DNA of 52,513 bases from Chitinophaga pinensis. GTDB taxonomy: Bacteria; Bacteroidota; Bacteroidia; UKL13-3. The position numbers were made by a program, and so were the translations under genes. The stretch covers positions 1 to 52,513 of the forward strand of contig CAMAWM010000014.1 of the NCBI GenBank assembly GCA_945861965.1. The letters run 5' to 3'. The notes beneath the pieces are model-generated. The model was not told the origin of the DNA. It did no database searches and saw only the letters and a program-made list of their open reading frames with translations. This document shows positions 11,174 to 33,130 of the stretch, in pieces (positions within the stretch are counted from its first letter, which is position 1; each line of letters starts with the position of its first letter).

Positions 11174-12151
11174 TTATTTTATTGCGCCAATTTCTACAAT
11201 TTCAAAATCCGTTGTTTTGATGTTTTTCAACTGATTCAATTCATCATTATCCCAGCGTTCATCGGGCGCTCCGCTAATAAATAAATCACTTCCAATATCT
11301 GCCAATATCAAACCGTATTTTTTCATGGCACTCAGAATTACTTTATTATTGGTTGAAAAACCACTTATATCAAACGAAGCTTTTAAACGCATTCGAGCGC
11401 CCATCGGCAATGAATAATTGATCAATCCCGTTCCGTTTACTTTATGTCTTGCCGGATTTACATATCCTTTGTAAACATGTGCTTTGGCAAGTGTGAATCT
11501 AATTGCGTGATTGATATTTCCAGAAACAACTTCATCGTAACGAATCAAACATGGAAGAATAGGCAACCCTGCAGCATCTGCTGATGTCCAAGTTTCAGTT
11601 CTGTAAAAATTAGTATTCATGTCGAAAACCGCTCCACACGAAGCAGACCAACCAGCACCACTGTTTTTTGAAGCATTGTACAATTCATACAATTTATTGT
11701 TTTCAACATCACAAACCAACACATGACTATCGCCATTTCCATTTCCTTCAATAGCCGCATCGTCTGGAATTGGAAAAGGTCCTTGATCGCTTTCGCTTCC
11801 GTAATTCCCATCGTAGCTATTTGCACGGTAAGTAATCGGTACTTTCAATTGACTTCCGCAAACTGCAGAAAAAGGAATTCCTATTGGCGCTCCATTCCAC
11901 AATCCACTTCCAAAATCAGGATGCATGCTATAAACTCCAATTGCAGAAATAATATTGGTTGAGTTTGCATCAATTGGCGAAGAACTAATATCAGTATTTA
12001 AAGGATAATCAAGAGGGAATTTTTGATTTTTTTCAATTGCAGCACGCGATTGAAAACCTGTACAACTATTCTGAGGATTTTTTTCTTCTGTAGCTTTATC
12101 GCATGACGATAAAAGGTTTAAAAGAATAAAAAGATACATGTAATTTTTCAT
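11174..12151 (-). CDS. Uncharacterised lipoprotein of a conserved secreted family
   Basis: A 325-residue exported lipoprotein. The N-terminus MKNYMYLFILLNLLSSC carries a lipobox with Cys17, followed by a Lys/Glu-rich linker. The body contains several strongly motif-like stretches: GSGLWNGAPIGIPFS, DSHVLVCDVENNKLYELYNA, WTSADAAGLPILPCLIRYDE, HAIRFTLAKAHVY, PMGARMRLKASFDIS and FISGAPDERWDNDEL. I recall very similar motifs in unnamed secreted proteins of other phyla (for example Acidobacteria and Actinobacteria), but I know no assigned domain or activity. The conserved Asp, His and Arg residues in these stretches could be catalytic or ligand-binding; this is inference. It is flanked on the same strand by the WG-repeat gene and pruA, which do not suggest a function. 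Confidence 0.75.
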   Translation of the reverse strand: MKNYMYLFILLNLLSSCDKATEEKNPQNSCTGFQSRAAIEKNQKFPLDYPLNTDISSSPIDANSTNIISAIGVYSMHPDFGSGLWNGAPIGIPFSAVCGSQLKVPITYRANSYDGNYGSESDQGPFPIPDDAAIEGNGNGDSHVLVCDVENNKLYELYNASKNSGAGWSASCGAVFDMNTNFYRTETWTSADAAGLPILPCLIRYDEVVSGNINHAIRFTLAKAHVYKGYVNPARHKVNGTGLINYSLPMGARMRLKASFDISGFSTNNKVILSAMKKYGLILADIGSDLFISGAPDERWDNDELNQLKNIKTTDFEIVEIGAIK

Positions 12152-13923: not shown

Positions 13924-15471
13924 TTATTTGGTTTCTAAAACGGCAAAAGGTAGAATCATTTCTTCCAAACTAATTCCACCGTGCTGAAATGAATTATTAT
14001 AAAGTCCAACGTGGTAATTGTAATTGTTTGGATATACCATAAAATCATCGCTCATTGCAAAAACATAGGTAGTACTTACATTTTGTTTTGGCAAAAACGC
14101 ATCGCCAGGATTTTTAACTACAAACAATTCGCTTTCTTTATAATTTAAATTTCTTCCTTGTTTGTACCTCAAATTGGTGCTGGTATTTTTGTCGCCAATT
14201 ATTTTTATTGGATTTCGCACCCTTATCGATCCATGATCAGTAGTAATTATAATTCGTGCTGGTTTTTGTGCAATGCGTTTTATGGCTTCAAACAATGGAG
14301 AATGTTCAAACCAGCTTGCAGTTATACTTCTGTATGCCGCTTCGTCTTCTGCTAATTCTTTCATTACATTCATTTCAGTTCGTGCATGGCTTATCATATC
14401 AACAAAATTATAAACGATGGCATTCAAAGGAATGTTTTGCAAATTTGGAATTGAATCCACTAAATTTTTTCCCGCATTCAAATTGGTGATTTTCGTGTAC
14501 GAAATTTTTTCTTTATAGCCCAATCGTTGCATTTGTTTGTTCAACAATGCTTCTTCGTAAATATTTTTTCCTTCATCATCTTCTTCGTTTACCCATAACT
14601 CAGGGTATAATTTTTCAATTTCGCTTGGCAACATTCCCGCAAAAAAACTATTTCGAGCATAGTGAGTTGTAGTGGGCAAAATAGTTAAATAGGTTTCGTC
14701 AACGATTGTATTAAAATATTCATTTAGTTGCTGTTGAATAATTTTCCACTGATCGTAACGAAGGTTATCTATCATTAAAACAAAAGTGGGTTTATCGTTT
14801 TTCAACAAGGGAAAAATCTTCTTTTTTACCAATGTGTGGCTCATTGGTGGAGTTTTTTCATCTGGCGTTTTTAAAAATTGCAGGAAATTCTTTTTGACAA
14901 ATTTGCTCCAAGCATAATTGGCATCTCGCTTTTGCATGGCCAATATTTCATCCATTCCTGTATCGCCACTTTTTGAAAGTTCGAGCTCCCAGTAAACTAT
15001 TTTTCTATATACATTTGACCAACTTTCAAAATCATTTACATCGTACAATTCCATTCCAATTTGACGAAATTCTTGTTGGTAATTTTGAGCCGTTTTTTCT
15101 GTTACCAATTGCTTGCTGTCTAAAATCTTTTTTAACGAAAGTAAAATCTGCATTGAGTTTACTGGCTTAATCAAATAATCGGCAATTTGATTTCCGATTG
15201 CATCTTCCATCAAATGCTCTTCTTCGCTTTTTGTAATCATTACAATCGGAACATCTGGCCGCATGGATTTAATTCGACTTAACGTCTCTAAACCGCTAAT
15301 TCCAGGCATGTTTTCATCCAAAAAAATTACATCGTATCTATTTTGTTTTACAGCATCTACAGCATCTACACCATTGGTTACTTTTTCTACTTCATAGCCC
15401 TTGTTTTGCAAAAATAAAATATGTGGTTTTAGCAAATCTATTTCGTCATCAGCCCAGAGAATTTTTGTCAT
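13924..15471 (-). CDS. porX: PorX, T9SS response regulator with PglZ domain
   Basis: Atypical response regulator of 515 residues. The N-terminal receiver domain (1-120) has the acidic pair WADDE (8-9 region), phospho-acceptor Asp in VIFLDENMPG (about Asp52), Thr in MITKSEE and Lys in LIKPVN. The rest is a PglZ/alkaline-phosphatase-like domain with FVLMIDNLRYDQW (nucleophile region), LPTTTHYARNSFF and IITTDHGS near the C-terminus. By established knowledge PorX acts with the sensor PorY and sigma P to control T9SS genes, and its PglZ domain is a zinc phosphodiesterase. porY is not in the window. The gene diverges from efp across a 148-nt gap. Confidence 0.93.
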   Translation of the reverse strand: MTKILWADDEIDLLKPHILFLQNKGYEVEKVTNGVDAVDAVKQNRYDVIFLDENMPGISGLETLSRIKSMRPDVPIVMITKSEEEHLMEDAIGNQIADYLIKPVNSMQILLSLKKILDSKQLVTEKTAQNYQQEFRQIGMELYDVNDFESWSNVYRKIVYWELELSKSGDTGMDEILAMQKRDANYAWSKFVKKNFLQFLKTPDEKTPPMSHTLVKKKIFPLLKNDKPTFVLMIDNLRYDQWKIIQQQLNEYFNTIVDETYLTILPTTTHYARNSFFAGMLPSEIEKLYPELWVNEEDDEGKNIYEEALLNKQMQRLGYKEKISYTKITNLNAGKNLVDSIPNLQNIPLNAIVYNFVDMISHARTEMNVMKELAEDEAAYRSITASWFEHSPLFEAIKRIAQKPARIIITTDHGSIRVRNPIKIIGDKNTSTNLRYKQGRNLNYKESELFVVKNPGDAFLPKQNVSTTYVFAMSDDFMVYPNNYNYHVGLYNNSFQHGGISLEEMILPFAVLETK

Positions 15472-15619: not shown

Positions 15620-16180
15620 ATGAATACTGCAGATTTATTTAAAGGCGCTTTTATAAAATACAATGGCGAATTATGTCAGGTATTGGAATACCAACACCGC
15701 ACACCGGGCAACCTTCGTGCATTTTACCAAGTAACTTTGCGCAATGTTAAAAGCGGCAAGCAAATGGAAAACCGTTATCGAGCAGGCGAGGATATTGAAT
15801 TTGTTCGTGTGGAGTATAAAGATATGCAGTTTCTTTACCGCGATGGAAGCAATTTGGTTTTGATGGATACTGAAACTTTCGACCAAGTTTATATTCCAGA
15901 CTTGTTGCTTGATGGAAAAGACCAATTTTTGAAAGAAGAAATGATGGTTCGAGTTACTTTTCAAGAAGGCGATAACCCAATTGCCGCAGAACCACCAACA
16001 TTTGTCGAAATGGAAATCACTTACAGCGAACCCGGTGTTAGAGGCGATACAGCAACGAATACATTAAAATCTGCTACTATAGAAACTGGAGGTCAAATTA
16101 TGGTTCCACTTTTTGTTAACCAAGGCGACCGAGTGAAAATTGATACCCGAACAGGTCAATATGTTGAAAGGGTAAAGTGA
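15620..16180 (+). CDS. efp: Elongation factor P with non-canonical tip residue
   Basis: EF-P relieves ribosomes stalled on polyproline stretches by placing a loop beside the P-site tRNA. The 186-residue protein has the three usual domains: KOW-like N-terminal (1-64), OB central (66-128) and OB C-terminal (about 129-186), ending in SATIETGGQIMVPLFVNQGD and IDTRTGQYVERVK. In the tip loop, where most EF-Ps have a modified Lys (or Arg) after PG, this one reads RTPGNLRAFYQ: Asn31 is at the tip and Arg33 two residues later. I recall a PGNLRAF subgroup in other phyla, so it may be an ancient subfamily rather than a decayed gene. The gene stands alone downstream of a promoter region shared with porX. 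Confidence 0.95.
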   Translation: MNTADLFKGAFIKYNGELCQVLEYQHRTPGNLRAFYQVTLRNVKSGKQMENRYRAGEDIEFVRVEYKDMQFLYRDGSNLVLMDTETFDQVYIPDLLLDGKDQFLKEEMMVRVTFQEGDNPIAAEPPTFVEMEITYSEPGVRGDTATNTLKSATIETGGQIMVPLFVNQGDRVKIDTRTGQYVERVK

Positions 16181-19625: not shown

Positions 19626-20222
19626 ATGACAACTTCAATGATTAAAAAAATTGGCATCATGGTGCTAATCGCGGCAGTAGGTTTAGGTGCATGTAGATCA
19701 AAAAAAAACAAAGCAACGCCAATTGAAAAGCAAACAGGAGCAATAGAAATAACAGTTCCATTTAGCAGCAAAGAATTTTTTAGTGATAAAGAAGAATTCA
19801 GATCAACATCAAGCGGAAACAGTCCTGACTTGCAAACAGCTAAAAAAATTGCTTTGCAAAATGCCAAATCTCAAATGGCAAGTTTGATTTCAACTACAAT
19901 TAAAAAAGTTACCGATCAATATACCGAACAAAGAGTGATTGATAAAAACGTTGATTTCAATAATAAGTTTGAAGAACTTGCTCGCGAAGTAACAAATCAA
20001 GAGTTGAATGATGTGAAAATTATAGGTGAAAAAGCATTTAAAGAGCAAAACGGAAACTATACGTATTGGGTTGCAATTGAAGCAAACAAACAGCTAATCC
20101 TAAACGGAATTAATAAAAATATTTCGACTGGAAAGAAATTAGAACAAGATTACGATAAGAAAAAGTTTGAAGAAATATTTAATAGCGAAATGCAGAAATT
20201 GGCTAAAGAAAGAGGCAATTAA
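19626..20222 (+). CDS. Small LPP20-like lipoprotein
   Basis: A 198-residue lipoprotein. Residues 1-22 form a signal peptide with lipobox GLGAC (Cys23). After a basic, disordered linker, the region about 60-165 shows the LPP20 pattern: LQTAKKIALQNAKSQMASLISTTI with regularly placed Ala residues, then a helix and a YTYWVAIEANKQLI strand. The C-terminus is a charged helix rich in Lys and Glu. LPP20 proteins are envelope lipoproteins of uncertain role. It has its own strong promoter at 19572-19602 and is followed by a terminator at 20254-20281, then a second, larger LPP20 gene. The two probably act together, but this is inference. Confidence 0.8.
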   Translation: MTTSMIKKIGIMVLIAAVGLGACRSKKNKATPIEKQTGAIEITVPFSSKEFFSDKEEFRSTSSGNSPDLQTAKKIALQNAKSQMASLISTTIKKVTDQYTEQRVIDKNVDFNNKFEELAREVTNQELNDVKIIGEKAFKEQNGNYTYWVAIEANKQLILNGINKNISTGKKLEQDYDKKKFEEIFNSEMQKLAKERGN

Positions 20223-20293: not shown

Positions 20294-21724
20294 TTGAAAA
20301 AAGCACATAAATATATTTTTGTTTTAATTGCGGTTTTGCAAGGTGTTTCTTGCGGAACGATTAATTTATCTGACAAAAGAAATAAAAAACCGGAATGGGT
20401 ACAACAAAGGCCTGTTAACGAAAAATTTTATATCGGAATTGGTTCTTGTAGTAAAATTTTTAACCCTCAGGATTTTCAACAAGTAGCAAAAAAAAATGCG
20501 CTCAATGATTTGGTTGGAGAAATTCAGGTTTCTGTTTCTACCAACTCGATTTTATCTCAATACCAAAACAATCAAGAATTTAAACAACAATTTTTTGCTG
20601 ATACAAAGATAACGGCACAAGCGTTTGTTGAAGATTTTCAAGTGCTTGATAGTTGGCAAAACGAGCAGGATTATTGGATTTATTATCGTTTATCAAAATC
20701 AGAATACGAAGCTGCAAAAAGAAAAAAACTGAATAAATCAGTTAACAGTTCATTGGATTTTTTAGAGCGAGCAGATAAACTTACTTTCCAAAATAATTAT
20801 ATGCAAATAATGCGAATGCGAATTAAAGCATTGGCGGCAGTTCAAAATTATTTGAACGAAAATTTGGAAACTGAATACAAAGGATCGAGAGTGTATTTGG
20901 TAAATGAAATATTAAATCAATTGCAAGACCAACTTTATTTATTGAATGTAAAATCAAATTTGAATGAGTTGAAAGGCAAAGTTGGGAAACCAATTCAACA
21001 ACCATTTTTAGCAAATGTTTTTTTACGCGATACCAGTAAAGGGAAATTAGCTGTTCCGTTTGTTCCAATGACTATGAAAATTGAACAAGGGAAAATGGAT
21101 TTTGGAAACTCTACGCTTTCAGATCAAAACGGTGAAGCGTCCTTTAGCATTGCTCGAATACTATCGAAAGATCCTGTTCAGCAACTTCGTGTTTTAGTTG
21201 ATTTGGAAAGTTTAAGTAAAACGGATAGTGTTACAATTTCGTTAAAAAAATTAATACTTTCATTAGATGCACCTGGAACAAATATTCGTCTTATGGTTGA
21301 TCCAATAAAGGTATTTGTTAGTAGCAATGAATTTAATCTGGACAAAAAACTTGCGTTTAATATTATTGAACCCCGATTGAAAAAACATTTGATTGAAGAT
21401 GGATGTAATTTTGTTGAGAATAGAAACGATGCAGATTATGAAATAAAAATAAATAGCAATACAAAAGACATGGGCGTTATGTTCGGAAAAATGCTTCAAT
21501 CAACTATTGATATGAATATTTCATTGATTGAGATTAAAAATAATTTGCAGATTTATTCTGATGCATTAAAAGAAATTCGTGGGTTTCAAACCACTCCTGA
21601 AAAAGCCGGACTAAATGCTTACGATGAAATGTTGCTCTTGTTTTGGAAAAATGTTTTCCCTACACTTCGCGATGAACTTGTTATAAAAAAGGATCAATTT
21701 ATTGGCATTGACATAGAAAAATGA
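20294..21724 (+). CDS. LPP20 family lipoprotein, TTG start
   Basis: A 476-residue protein with an N-terminal signal peptide (KKAHKYIFVLIAVLQGVSC) that places a lipidation Cys at residue 20. An LPP20 domain (about 35-150) follows: KPEWVQQRPVNEKFYIGIG, QVAKKNALNDLVGEIQVSV and a YWIYYRLSKSEYEAAKR strand-helix end. The rest has a central helical part, a beta-rich domain (about 230-330) and a C-terminal domain with FVENRNDADYEIKI. TTG at 20294 is the only reasonable start: TAG at 20288-20290 stops the frame and no ATG precedes the signal peptide. The 3' end overlaps the convergent barrel-protein gene by 31 nt. Function unknown. Confidence 0.85.
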   Translation: MKKAHKYIFVLIAVLQGVSCGTINLSDKRNKKPEWVQQRPVNEKFYIGIGSCSKIFNPQDFQQVAKKNALNDLVGEIQVSVSTNSILSQYQNNQEFKQQFFADTKITAQAFVEDFQVLDSWQNEQDYWIYYRLSKSEYEAAKRKKLNKSVNSSLDFLERADKLTFQNNYMQIMRMRIKALAAVQNYLNENLETEYKGSRVYLVNEILNQLQDQLYLLNVKSNLNELKGKVGKPIQQPFLANVFLRDTSKGKLAVPFVPMTMKIEQGKMDFGNSTLSDQNGEASFSIARILSKDPVQQLRVLVDLESLSKTDSVTISLKKLILSLDAPGTNIRLMVDPIKVFVSSNEFNLDKKLAFNIIEPRLKKHLIEDGCNFVENRNDADYEIKINSNTKDMGVMFGKMLQSTIDMNISLIEIKNNLQIYSDALKEIRGFQTTPEKAGLNAYDEMLLLFWKNVFPTLRDELVIKKDQFIGIDIEK

Positions 21725-22509
21725 GGACTTAATCCTAAAATTTCATGTACAGATGACGCGAAATCAAAATGTGTTTTTTTGTATTTTATCGAACAGCCAA
21801 AAGTATAGTATAATGGATTGTTTGCAAATCCGCATCGCAATGCAAAGCTCGGTAAAATCTGATAGTCAATTCCAAATCGATTAATTAAATCTTCTCCTAA
21901 TGTTTTGTTTGATTCTGCTAACAATTGAATTTTTTTATTCAGTTCGTATCTTAATCCGAGTCTTGCAAATGTTGGAATTTTATCAACTGCATTTGTCGAA
22001 TATTTATTTTGAGTTGGATTAAAAAGTAGCATTCCTACTGTTAAATTCTTTTGCGGTTTATAATAAACCCCAGTTTCAATCAATACATTTCCAGCGCCCT
22101 CTTGTTCTGCAATATTTAATCGCATGTATGAAATGTTAGCACCTAAACTAAAAGTGCTACTTAATTTTTTGGCCATGCTCAATGAAATTTTTTGTTGATT
22201 AAATGCGCTGTAACCAAAATGATTGACTAAAATACCAACATGAACCCAACGAAATGGAATTACAAGCGATACAGAATGCAAACCTAAATTAGAAATCATA
22301 AATCTATTCTCGGAATAAATTCCAGCTTGAATATTTTGTAAGTATGTAATAGCAGCAGGATTGTTTTGTGTCGAAAAAATAGTCTCATCTGATACGGATG
22401 CACCACCTAAGCCCCATGATTTAGCTCCAATTGTAGAAGTTGGTTGAGCATAAACAAATGAATGAAAAAAAATAAAAGAAATAAAAACAATGAATGAAAT
22501 TCGTAACAT
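21694..22509 (-). CDS. PorV/PorQ-like outer-membrane barrel protein
   Basis: A 271-residue predicted outer-membrane beta barrel. A signal peptide ends near residue 22 (VYAQ). SWGLGGASVSDETIFSTQNNPAAITYL (seen in parts at about 31-57) is the N-terminal element shared by the FadL-like PorV/PorQ group, in which an Ala/Gly-rich segment and an NPA motif start the barrel. Alternating strands fill the rest. It might take part in T9SS or be a general lipid-binding barrel; homology alone does not decide. The last 31 nt overlap the 3' end of the LPP20 gene on the other strand. acs lies 11 nt upstream, so the two may share a transcript. Confidence 0.8.
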   Translation of the reverse strand: MLRISFIVFISFIFFHSFVYAQPTSTIGAKSWGLGGASVSDETIFSTQNNPAAITYLQNIQAGIYSENRFMISNLGLHSVSLVIPFRWVHVGILVNHFGYSAFNQQKISLSMAKKLSSTFSLGANISYMRLNIAEQEGAGNVLIETGVYYKPQKNLTVGMLLFNPTQNKYSTNAVDKIPTFARLGLRYELNKKIQLLAESNKTLGEDLINRFGIDYQILPSFALRCGFANNPLYYTFGCSIKYKKTHFDFASSVHEILGLSPHFSMSMPIN

Positions 22510-31397: not shown

Positions 31398-32087
31398 CTA
31401 CGACATCGTTGCATTTTTTTCGTTCAGCAGTTTTAAAACAAATTCCAATTGCTGCTCGCGTGAAAGATTTGTTGTATCTAATTCAATTGCATCCTTAGAT
31501 TTTATTAATGGACTGTCATCTCTCGTACTGTCTATGGAATCTCTTTTTTCTAAATTTGCTAATACTTCCTCAAAAGTAGTTTCTTGGCCTTTACTTTTTA
31601 ATTCATCAAACCTTCGTTGAGCTCTTATTTTAGCATCTGCAGTAACAAATATTTTTATTTCTGCCTGAGGAAAAACGACTGTGCCAATATCTCGTCCATC
31701 CATTACAATTCCTCCTTCTTCTCCCATTTTTTGTTGCTGCTTAACCAAAAATTTCCTAACCTCACTAATGGCACTTACATCACTAACGGCACTTGCTACT
31801 CTTGGATTTACACGAATTTCAATTTCTACATTTTCACCATTCAAAAAAATTTCTTGTAGCTTGTTTTCTAAATTCATTTTAAATGCAATACTTATATCTT
31901 TCAATGATTCTTGAACTAAGTTTAAGTGACGAAATTCAATTTGATTTCTCAAAAAAAACAAAGTTACAGCTCTATACATCGCACCTGAATCAACGTAACG
32001 AAATCCTAAAATAGCTGACAATTCTTTTGCAATTGTGCTTTTTCCGCACGATGAATGTCCGTCAATTGCTATGGTAATTTTTTTCAT
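31398..32087 (-). CDS. cmk: Cytidylate kinase
   Basis: Phosphorylates CMP and dCMP with ATP. It has 229 residues. The P-loop GHSSCGKST is at residues 10-18, AMYRAVTLFFL marks the CMP-binding region, and MDGRDIGTVVFPQAEIKIFV is the signature of the family. RDDSPL contains the lid Arg and Asp residues. It overlaps the end of porQ by 4 nt (ATGA type), so its translation is likely coupled to porQ; this porQ-cmk arrangement is a common one in Bacteroidota. Confidence 0.96.
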   Translation of the reverse strand: MKKITIAIDGHSSCGKSTIAKELSAILGFRYVDSGAMYRAVTLFFLRNQIEFRHLNLVQESLKDISIAFKMNLENKLQEIFLNGENVEIEIRVNPRVASAVSDVSAISEVRKFLVKQQQKMGEEGGIVMDGRDIGTVVFPQAEIKIFVTADAKIRAQRRFDELKSKGQETTFEEVLANLEKRDSIDSTRDDSPLIKSKDAIELDTTNLSREQQLEFVLKLLNEKNATMS

Positions 32088-33130
32088 TTCTTTTTATAAA
32101 ATTCACTCAAATTGGTAACTATCGAAAAATTGTTTGTGGCGTTATCTGCATAAAAAGATGCACTTCCATACGAAAAATGAAACTTGTTAATTTTAATTCC
32201 AAAACCCCAACTAAAACCTGCAAATGTTCTGGTATCTGGCAAGCTTAATTCTCTTCTTCGTAAATTATTATATCCAAAACGCAACATAAAACCAGGACCA
32301 AAAATCACTTCGCTATTGGCAATTAAATGACTCATTGCATAATCTAATATAGTAAATTGTTCAGGAATTATTTGTCCTGTAACCAAATCTGTATTTCCTG
32401 AATTTTTTCCTGAATTTTGATAAAGCAAATTTCCAATATCTTGTAAATTATGTGCAATTAAAGACAATCGCAATGGATTGTGAGCGAACTTTTTTGAGAA
32501 TCCAATTTGAATGTTCATCGGCAAATTTTCAGAATTGTTTTGCGTGTATGAAATTAGTTGTTTTCCCAAATTACTTGCCACAGCAGTAACCATCATCAAA
32601 CTATCTTCGCTTAGCCACGATGCTGCCACATCTGCAGCTAAGCCAAGCGATGTGTACGACTCCATTTCAGAGTAAATTACTTTTGCATTAACACCAATGT
32701 TCCAGTTTTGGTAAATTCGGGACGTGCTGAAATGAAAACAAAAATCGTTGGCCGCAAACGAACCAATAATATTTCCGCTTTCATCTGTTTTGTCAAATAC
32801 ACCATAATTTATATAATGCACTCCTGCCGAAAGTGGTCTAGCTGATTTAGTATTCCAGGCATATCCAAAATATCCCATTCCCATATCAGCAAAATAACGC
32901 AGGTAATTCATTGAAAATTGGTTCTGCATTTTTTTTGTAAGCAGCGAAGGATTAGCAAGTACCAAACTCATGTCGTTATCAGGTGTTACAATTGCACTTC
33001 CGCCTAATGCCGCTATTCGTGCATTGGGATACACATTTAAGAAATTATAAACGGATGTGCCACCAATTTGTGCGTGGCAAATTGTGATGCTCCAAAAACT
33101 AAAAAGTATGCTTTGAACTATTCGTTTCAT
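32084..33130 (-). CDS. porQ: T9SS outer-membrane protein PorQ
   Basis: A 348-residue beta-barrel protein of the FadL-like group, associated with the type IX secretion attachment complex. A signal peptide ends near residue 20 (CHAQ). The starting block YNFLNVYPNARIAALGGSA (about 27-45) is the PorQ form of the element also found in PorV; a PSLL motif follows, and the rest is alternating strand sequence. Established work in Porphyromonas shows PorQ works with PorU, PorV and PorZ to remove and replace the sorting domain of cargo with A-LPS. It overlaps cmk by 4 nt. A divergent promoter region (33131-33275) is shared with the phosphate transporter. Confidence 0.88.
   Translation of the reverse strand: MKRIVQSILFSFWSITICHAQIGGTSVYNFLNVYPNARIAALGGSAIVTPDNDMSLVLANPSLLTKKMQNQFSMNYLRYFADMGMGYFGYAWNTKSARPLSAGVHYINYGVFDKTDESGNIIGSFAANDFCFHFSTSRIYQNWNIGVNAKVIYSEMESYTSLGLAADVAASWLSEDSLMMVTAVASNLGKQLISYTQNNSENLPMNIQIGFSKKFAHNPLRLSLIAHNLQDIGNLLYQNSGKNSGNTDLVTGQIIPEQFTILDYAMSHLIANSEVIFGPGFMLRFGYNNLRRRELSLPDTRTFAGFSWGFGIKINKFHFSYGSASFYADNATNNFSIVTNLSEFYKKK

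Follow-up and report, generated by a model that had tools for sequence, protein, structure and literature searches.

The stretch of DNA analysed here (the window) comprises 52,513 nucleotides of a Bacteroidota genome (2.1 Mb, 61 contigs, 96% complete) and carries at positions 15620..16180 of the forward strand an efp gene, which encodes a complete three-domain elongation factor P (EF-P) of 186 aa and is the sole copy found in the genome. EF-P assists ribosomes in synthesising proline stretches, and most EF-Ps bear a chemically modified Lys or Arg at the tip of a loop. The open reading frame scores 227.5 bits against the NCBIfam efp equivalog TIGR00038, passing the cut-off of 185.8, and has hits to each of the three Pfam EF-P domains (one KOW-like and two OB domains), in agreement with the initial annotation, which had described the protein outside its tip loop as a complete EF-P. 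An AlphaFold2 model built from 33 relatives has a mean pLDDT of 89.9 and a pTM of 0.73, and its top fold matches in the PDB are solved EF-Ps. In domain III, Tyr181 and Arg184 (Tyr181 to Arg184, 16160..16171, forward strand) do not vary across an alignment of 33 sequences; their apparent counterparts in E. coli EF-P are Tyr183 and Arg186, which have been described as touching the P-site tRNA and the 16S rRNA (PMC11611912). Judged from its sequence, the protein outside the loop is constrained as is usual for EF-Ps, these two domain III residues included. Elsewhere in the window, open reading frames of 198-348 aa at 11174-12151 (reverse strand), 19626-20222 (forward), 21694-22509 (reverse) and 32084-33130 (reverse) have no Pfam match at E 0.001.

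Residues 26-37 (HRTPGNLRAFYQ; 15695..15730, forward strand), encoded by CAC CGC ACA CCG GGC AAC CTT CGT GCA TTT TAC CAA, run from the end of strand 3 through a seven-residue loop, T28-A34, into the start of strand 4. Alignment and model both make Asn31 (codon AAC, 15710..15712, forward strand) the tip residue, equivalent to Lys34 of E. coli: in HMMER alignments to solved EF-Ps it is aligned gap-free with the Lys of the PGK loop, and the AlphaFold2 model has strands at residues 17-27 and 35-42 that leave a seven-residue loop at 28-34, TPGNLRA, with Asn31 in its middle. A misalignment of the loop is thus ruled out, and the original proposal that Asn31 replaces the usual Lys or Arg at the tip holds, with its numbering and coordinates, no Lys or Arg being placed there by the alignment with other EF-Ps. 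The next two residues, Leu32-Arg33 (codons CTT CGT, 15713..15718, forward strand), occupy the +1 and +2 positions, which by covariation switch with the tip; Arg33 had been correctly noted as lying two places after Asn31, and its codon CGT occupies 15716-15718. Two places before the tip stands Pro29 (Pro at −2), and the loop has no Lys.

Among 99 sequences taken from outside the loop-pattern scan described below, the Asn codon is AAC in 53 and AAT in 46, and all six Arg codons occur at position 33, with the encoded residues fixed. Since the codons are free to vary while the residues stay the same, the Asn/Arg loop is neither a product of chance nor a sequencing error, and these comparative data show a loop of normal length, with an Asn tip followed by a bulky residue at +1 and Arg at +2, that is held by purifying selection. 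The opposite view would be that Asn31 and Arg33 are near-neutral, the loop being tolerated and not adapted in a cell with low demand for EF-P. The 41 proteins of the window, 15641 aa in all, do contain only 12 PP motifs (a small sample, and one that lacks a comparison set), but few parts of the protein are as conserved as the loop, its residues are fixed over phyla while synonymous codons drift, and its tip, +1 and +2 residues switch in a coordinated manner, which makes near-neutrality very improbable.

The coordination of these positions is seen in 282 distinct full-length EF-Ps, none of them taken from the loop-pattern scan. The set was gathered with the window protein as query and from partly hand-picked families, and the rates of Asn and Lys within it are not population rates; this sampling bias should not create covariation. 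An Asn tip is found in 136 of the 282, with Gly at +1 in none of the 136 and Arg or His at +2 in 134 (the +1/+2 pairs being LR in 106, WR in 18, KR in 7, LP in 2, and LH, KH and RR in 1 each). The 107 Lys-tip proteins all have Gly at +1, and their +2 residue is basic in 3/107 (R in three; otherwise Q, G, T, P, S, A, N or M). The counts show the tip, +1 and +2 residues to switch as a unit between the forms 'K-G-x' and 'N-[L/W/K]-[R/H]', with +1 following the tip more strictly than +2 does: His replaces Arg at +2 in two Asn-tip sequences, and two sequences from Acidobacteriota read NLPAR. Rare Asn-tip loops that break the rule, EHQTPGNLPARV and QHVKIANRRAVIQ, occur in L365, L369 and L275, all from Acidobacteriota; the former has Pro at +2 with an Arg two places beyond, and in the latter the Asn is not preceded by PG.

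On a tree of 157 EF-Ps, from which the loop columns were left out, the tip state changes many times, and Lys- and Asn-type proteins are found as close neighbours (L312/L304, the tandem pair in L160, L194 near L191, L237 near L161, L301 and L277 near L058, and L352 near L278). Gly at +1 tracks the tip in 8/8 independent Asn/Lys contrasts on supported branches (p 0.008), basicity at +2 does so in about 7/8 with none opposed (supported branches, median p 0.016), and a Pagel-type likelihood test of tip against +2 gives an LR of 94. Some Sphingobacteriaceae hold both an Asn-type and a Lys-type EF-P, in tandem or apart. Tandem pairs, with the loops HRTPGNLRAFYQ (Asn-type) and HRTPGKGGAFYT (Lys-type), are present in L160 (1498-2725) and also in L078, L150 and L167, which belong to Sphingobacteriaceae and include Pedobacter. 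The L160 genes lie 134 bases apart, their products are identical at 129 of 183 aligned positions (about 70%), and the two copies are sisters on the tree; by this evidence the pair is a duplication, after which one copy would have gone from N-L-R to K-G-G or the reverse.

The coexistence of both types in some Sphingobacteriaceae gives some ground for supposing that the window gene is a paralogue with a specialised role or weak activity, the job being done by a canonical Lys-type EF-P elsewhere, and a second, canonical copy had been one of the options raised for this cell. In the genome assembly (96% complete, 61 contigs), however, one EF-P C-terminal domain was found, that of the window gene, and the Asn-type protein is the sole EF-P in 27 of 30 diverse Asn-type genomes. 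Being the only copy here and in those genomes, it must be able to do the EF-P job. In L160, where both types stand side by side, the two copies are sisters, and the Lys-type gene is hence a duplicate of local origin and no old canonical partner. With these points in mind the second-copy option finds no support in this assembly, and we regard a paralogue reading as most improbable. A different kind of company was observed in 13 genomes of Acidobacteriota and Planctomycetota (G364, G377, G379, G381, G392, G393, G396, G403, G405, G408, G419, G421 and G439), in which EfpL-like proteins with an extended loop (e.g., PTARGGQT) occur alongside an Asn-type EF-P. EfpL has been reported to co-occur mainly with beta-lysylated EF-P (PMC11611912).

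The loop HRTPGNLRAF is identical in genes from 29 other genomes of the same family. The initial annotation had considered a possible subgroup within Bacteroidota and had suggested a comparison with PGNLRAF-type proteins of other phyla, and in this comparison the same loop recurs there. A pattern scan of 84,980 species genomes, in which +1 was left free and Arg was demanded at +2, gave at least 118 matching stretches. Because the pattern required Arg, the scan is unusable as an argument for that residue, and its sequences are excluded from the counts of the loop grammar; +1 is Leu in every loop read among the scan matches listed. Among those listed matches, records with names come from Bacteroidota (at least 45), Verrucomicrobiota (at least 29), Acidobacteriota (at least 20), Planctomycetota (at least 6), Gemmatimonadota (at least 3), Ignavibacteriota (at least 3) and Chlorobiota (at least 2), plus a few from other groups. 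In even samples of genomes, an Asn-type EF-P was found in 26/50 Acidobacteriota, 20/48 Planctomycetota and 8/43 Verrucomicrobiota. The search with the window protein gave no EF-P match in genomes G031 and G039, which are listed as 97-99% complete. By its sequence, then, HRTPGNLRAF is a loop type spread over at least six phyla and usually found in the sole EF-P, in place of the Bacteroidota subgroup first envisaged.

We also looked in the genome for the enzymes that modify other EF-Ps. The EpmA search that had been proposed for this genome found nothing above the curated cut-off of 286.9 bits; the best match, at 244 bits, lies in a frame of 506 aa that is probably a lysyl-tRNA synthetase. The EarP search gave no match in the genome and none in any control genome either. 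Next to efp lie porX (13924-15471, reverse strand), in divergent orientation with start codons 148 bases apart, and a gene for an SPFH protein, neither of which is a plausible EF-P modifier. PorX, a response regulator of type IX secretion, carries a PglZ-like domain. A modifier gene adjacent to Asn-type efp was sought among the recurring neighbours at the loci read, whose sequences by eye resemble lpx genes, an ABC-transporter ATPase, accB/accC and 5-formyl-THF cyclo-ligase, and there is no conserved candidate among them. According to Volkwein 2019 (PMC6544042), over half of all bacteria have no gene for any of the known enzymes that modify EF-P.

The reading we prefer, with a probability of roughly 0.58, is that the window gene encodes a functional EF-P belonging to a widespread class with an Asn-type loop, which would be the main or only EF-P of the cell. 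We infer that such an EF-P needs no known tip modification, and the Asn-type loop looks like an alternative way for the factor to work without the known modifications. An enzyme of some other kind could nevertheless modify Asn31 or Arg33, and for this the deoxyhypusine synthase (DHS) family has to be considered. A DHS homologue is encoded in the window genome (G000 contig 16:9010-9921; L032:1456-2430) and matches PF01916 with 142.5 bits; it is divergent, below every NCBIfam DHS equivalog cut-off, and reads ...NEKITWGKLDV... near its end, where it retains the WGK motif around the catalytic lysine of the DHS active site. Over four phyla, PF01916 proteins occur in 83/85 Asn-type vs. 27/60 Lys-type genomes (Bacteroidota 47/47 vs. 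13/18, Acidobacteriota 15/16 vs. 8/15, Planctomycetota 13/14 vs. 5/14, Verrucomicrobiota 8/8 vs. 1/13). Fisher tests on the raw counts give p values of 4e-5 to 0.015 in each of the four phyla, and a Pagel-type test of DHS against the tip on the EF-P tree gives an LR of 28.8 (p about 9e-6); the independent-pairs test, which has only 5 supported pairs, reaches no significance. The association is kept as a lead and was rejected as proof of a link, given those few pairs.

This near-perfect co-occurrence counts against our preferred reading, which does not account for it. It would favour an undescribed covalent modification of Arg33 or Asn31 by an unlinked enzyme, the DHS homologue being one candidate, as would the retention of the WGK motif. 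Yet the aminobutyl group that DHS transfers goes to a lysine, an acceptor missing from the loop; the homologue is present in many Lys-type genomes as well and at none of the efp loci read, and the pairs test on supported branches lends it no significance. DHS-like proteins are also noted by Volkwein 2019 in some bacteria with a Lys or Asn tip (PMC6544042), but SpeY, a bacterial DHS homologue, is reported to be a homospermidine synthase with no part in deoxyhypusine formation (PMC9992855), and overall a covalent modification seems unlikely to us. The product of SpeY and the same genome counts could instead suggest that the Asn-type EF-P stays unmodified while a free polyamine, for example homospermidine made via the DHS homologue, fills the space of the modified lysine near the P-site CCA end. 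This is a correlation, weakly corrected for descent, and most bacteria have polyamines by other routes; we consider it improbable. Activation through a DHS-homologue route in either manner, by an undescribed group on the loop (e.g., at Arg33) or by a non-covalent polyamine standing in for the lysine modification, would account for the near-universal presence of the homologue in Asn-type genomes, and is in our estimate decidedly doubtful. Since the loop has no lysine for an aminobutyl group and SpeY makes homospermidine, the DHS link is taken, until tested, as indirect or confounded by descent.

For a functional Asn-type EF-P without a known tip modification, the mechanism would be as follows. 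The factor would bind between the E and P sites as other EF-Ps do. By analogy with EfpL and its unmodified Arg (PMC11611912), Arg33 may contribute the charge that otherwise comes from a modified Lys, and the replacement of Gly by a bulky +1 residue may make the tip stiffer. The initial annotation had offered an unmodified Asn and a role taken over by Arg33 as separate options; the joint switching of tip, +1 and +2 favours the two together. The line of evidence that points to a charge role for Arg33 is the covariation, and Arg33 may be structural, as +1 is the stricter position, His takes the place of Arg twice and NLPAR occurs in two Acidobacteriota. The loop grammar offers a testable rule, namely that tip, +1 and +2 should need to be exchanged jointly, and the Pedobacter and Mucilaginibacter strains with both EF-P types provide a natural comparison. 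Asn-type EF-Ps make up a large part of those in Acidobacteriota and Planctomycetota and much of those in Bacteroidota, and whether they are unmodified bears on how EF-P acts.

The window gene belongs to an Asn-tip EF-P subtype that has been recorded and is so far uncharacterised. Volkwein 2019 (PMC6544042) counted Asn tips in 2.23% of 1166 EF-Ps, Pro standing at −2 in every case, and the window protein shares both the tip residue and this proline (Pro29); Asn-tip EF-Ps are also mentioned in PMC11611912. A search of the open literature, with subscription papers mostly outside it, found no functional study of an Asn-type EF-P or of K34N. With Lys-type EF-P, which undergoes beta-lysylation by EpmA or 5-aminopentanolylation, the window protein has in common the fold, the length of the loop and the Pro and Gly at −2 and −1, and it differs in lacking a tip Lys and a +1 Gly and in having Arg at +2, in a genome where EpmA was not found. 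With Arg-type EF-P, rhamnosylated by EarP, it shares the fold and a positive charge in the loop, but its Arg is at +2 instead of at the tip, and it has the Pro at −2 that is described as incompatible with EarP (Volkwein 2019, PMC6544042). It is unlike a DHS-modified eIF5A-like factor in that TPGNLRA contains no acceptor Lys, even though the genome encodes a protein of the DHS family. EfpL (YeiP) functions by means of an Arg that stays unmodified and lies in an extended loop (PMC11611912), and the use of an unmodified Arg in place of a modified Lys may be a principle shared with the window protein, which is otherwise distinct from EfpL (110.5 bits against a cut-off of 216) in its seven-residue loop and Asn tip, where EfpL has a longer loop tipped by Arg. 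To the count and the proline link found in the accessible part of Volkwein 2019, the present analysis adds the grammar of tip, +1 and +2, the spread over phyla, the sole-copy status and the rates in even samples.
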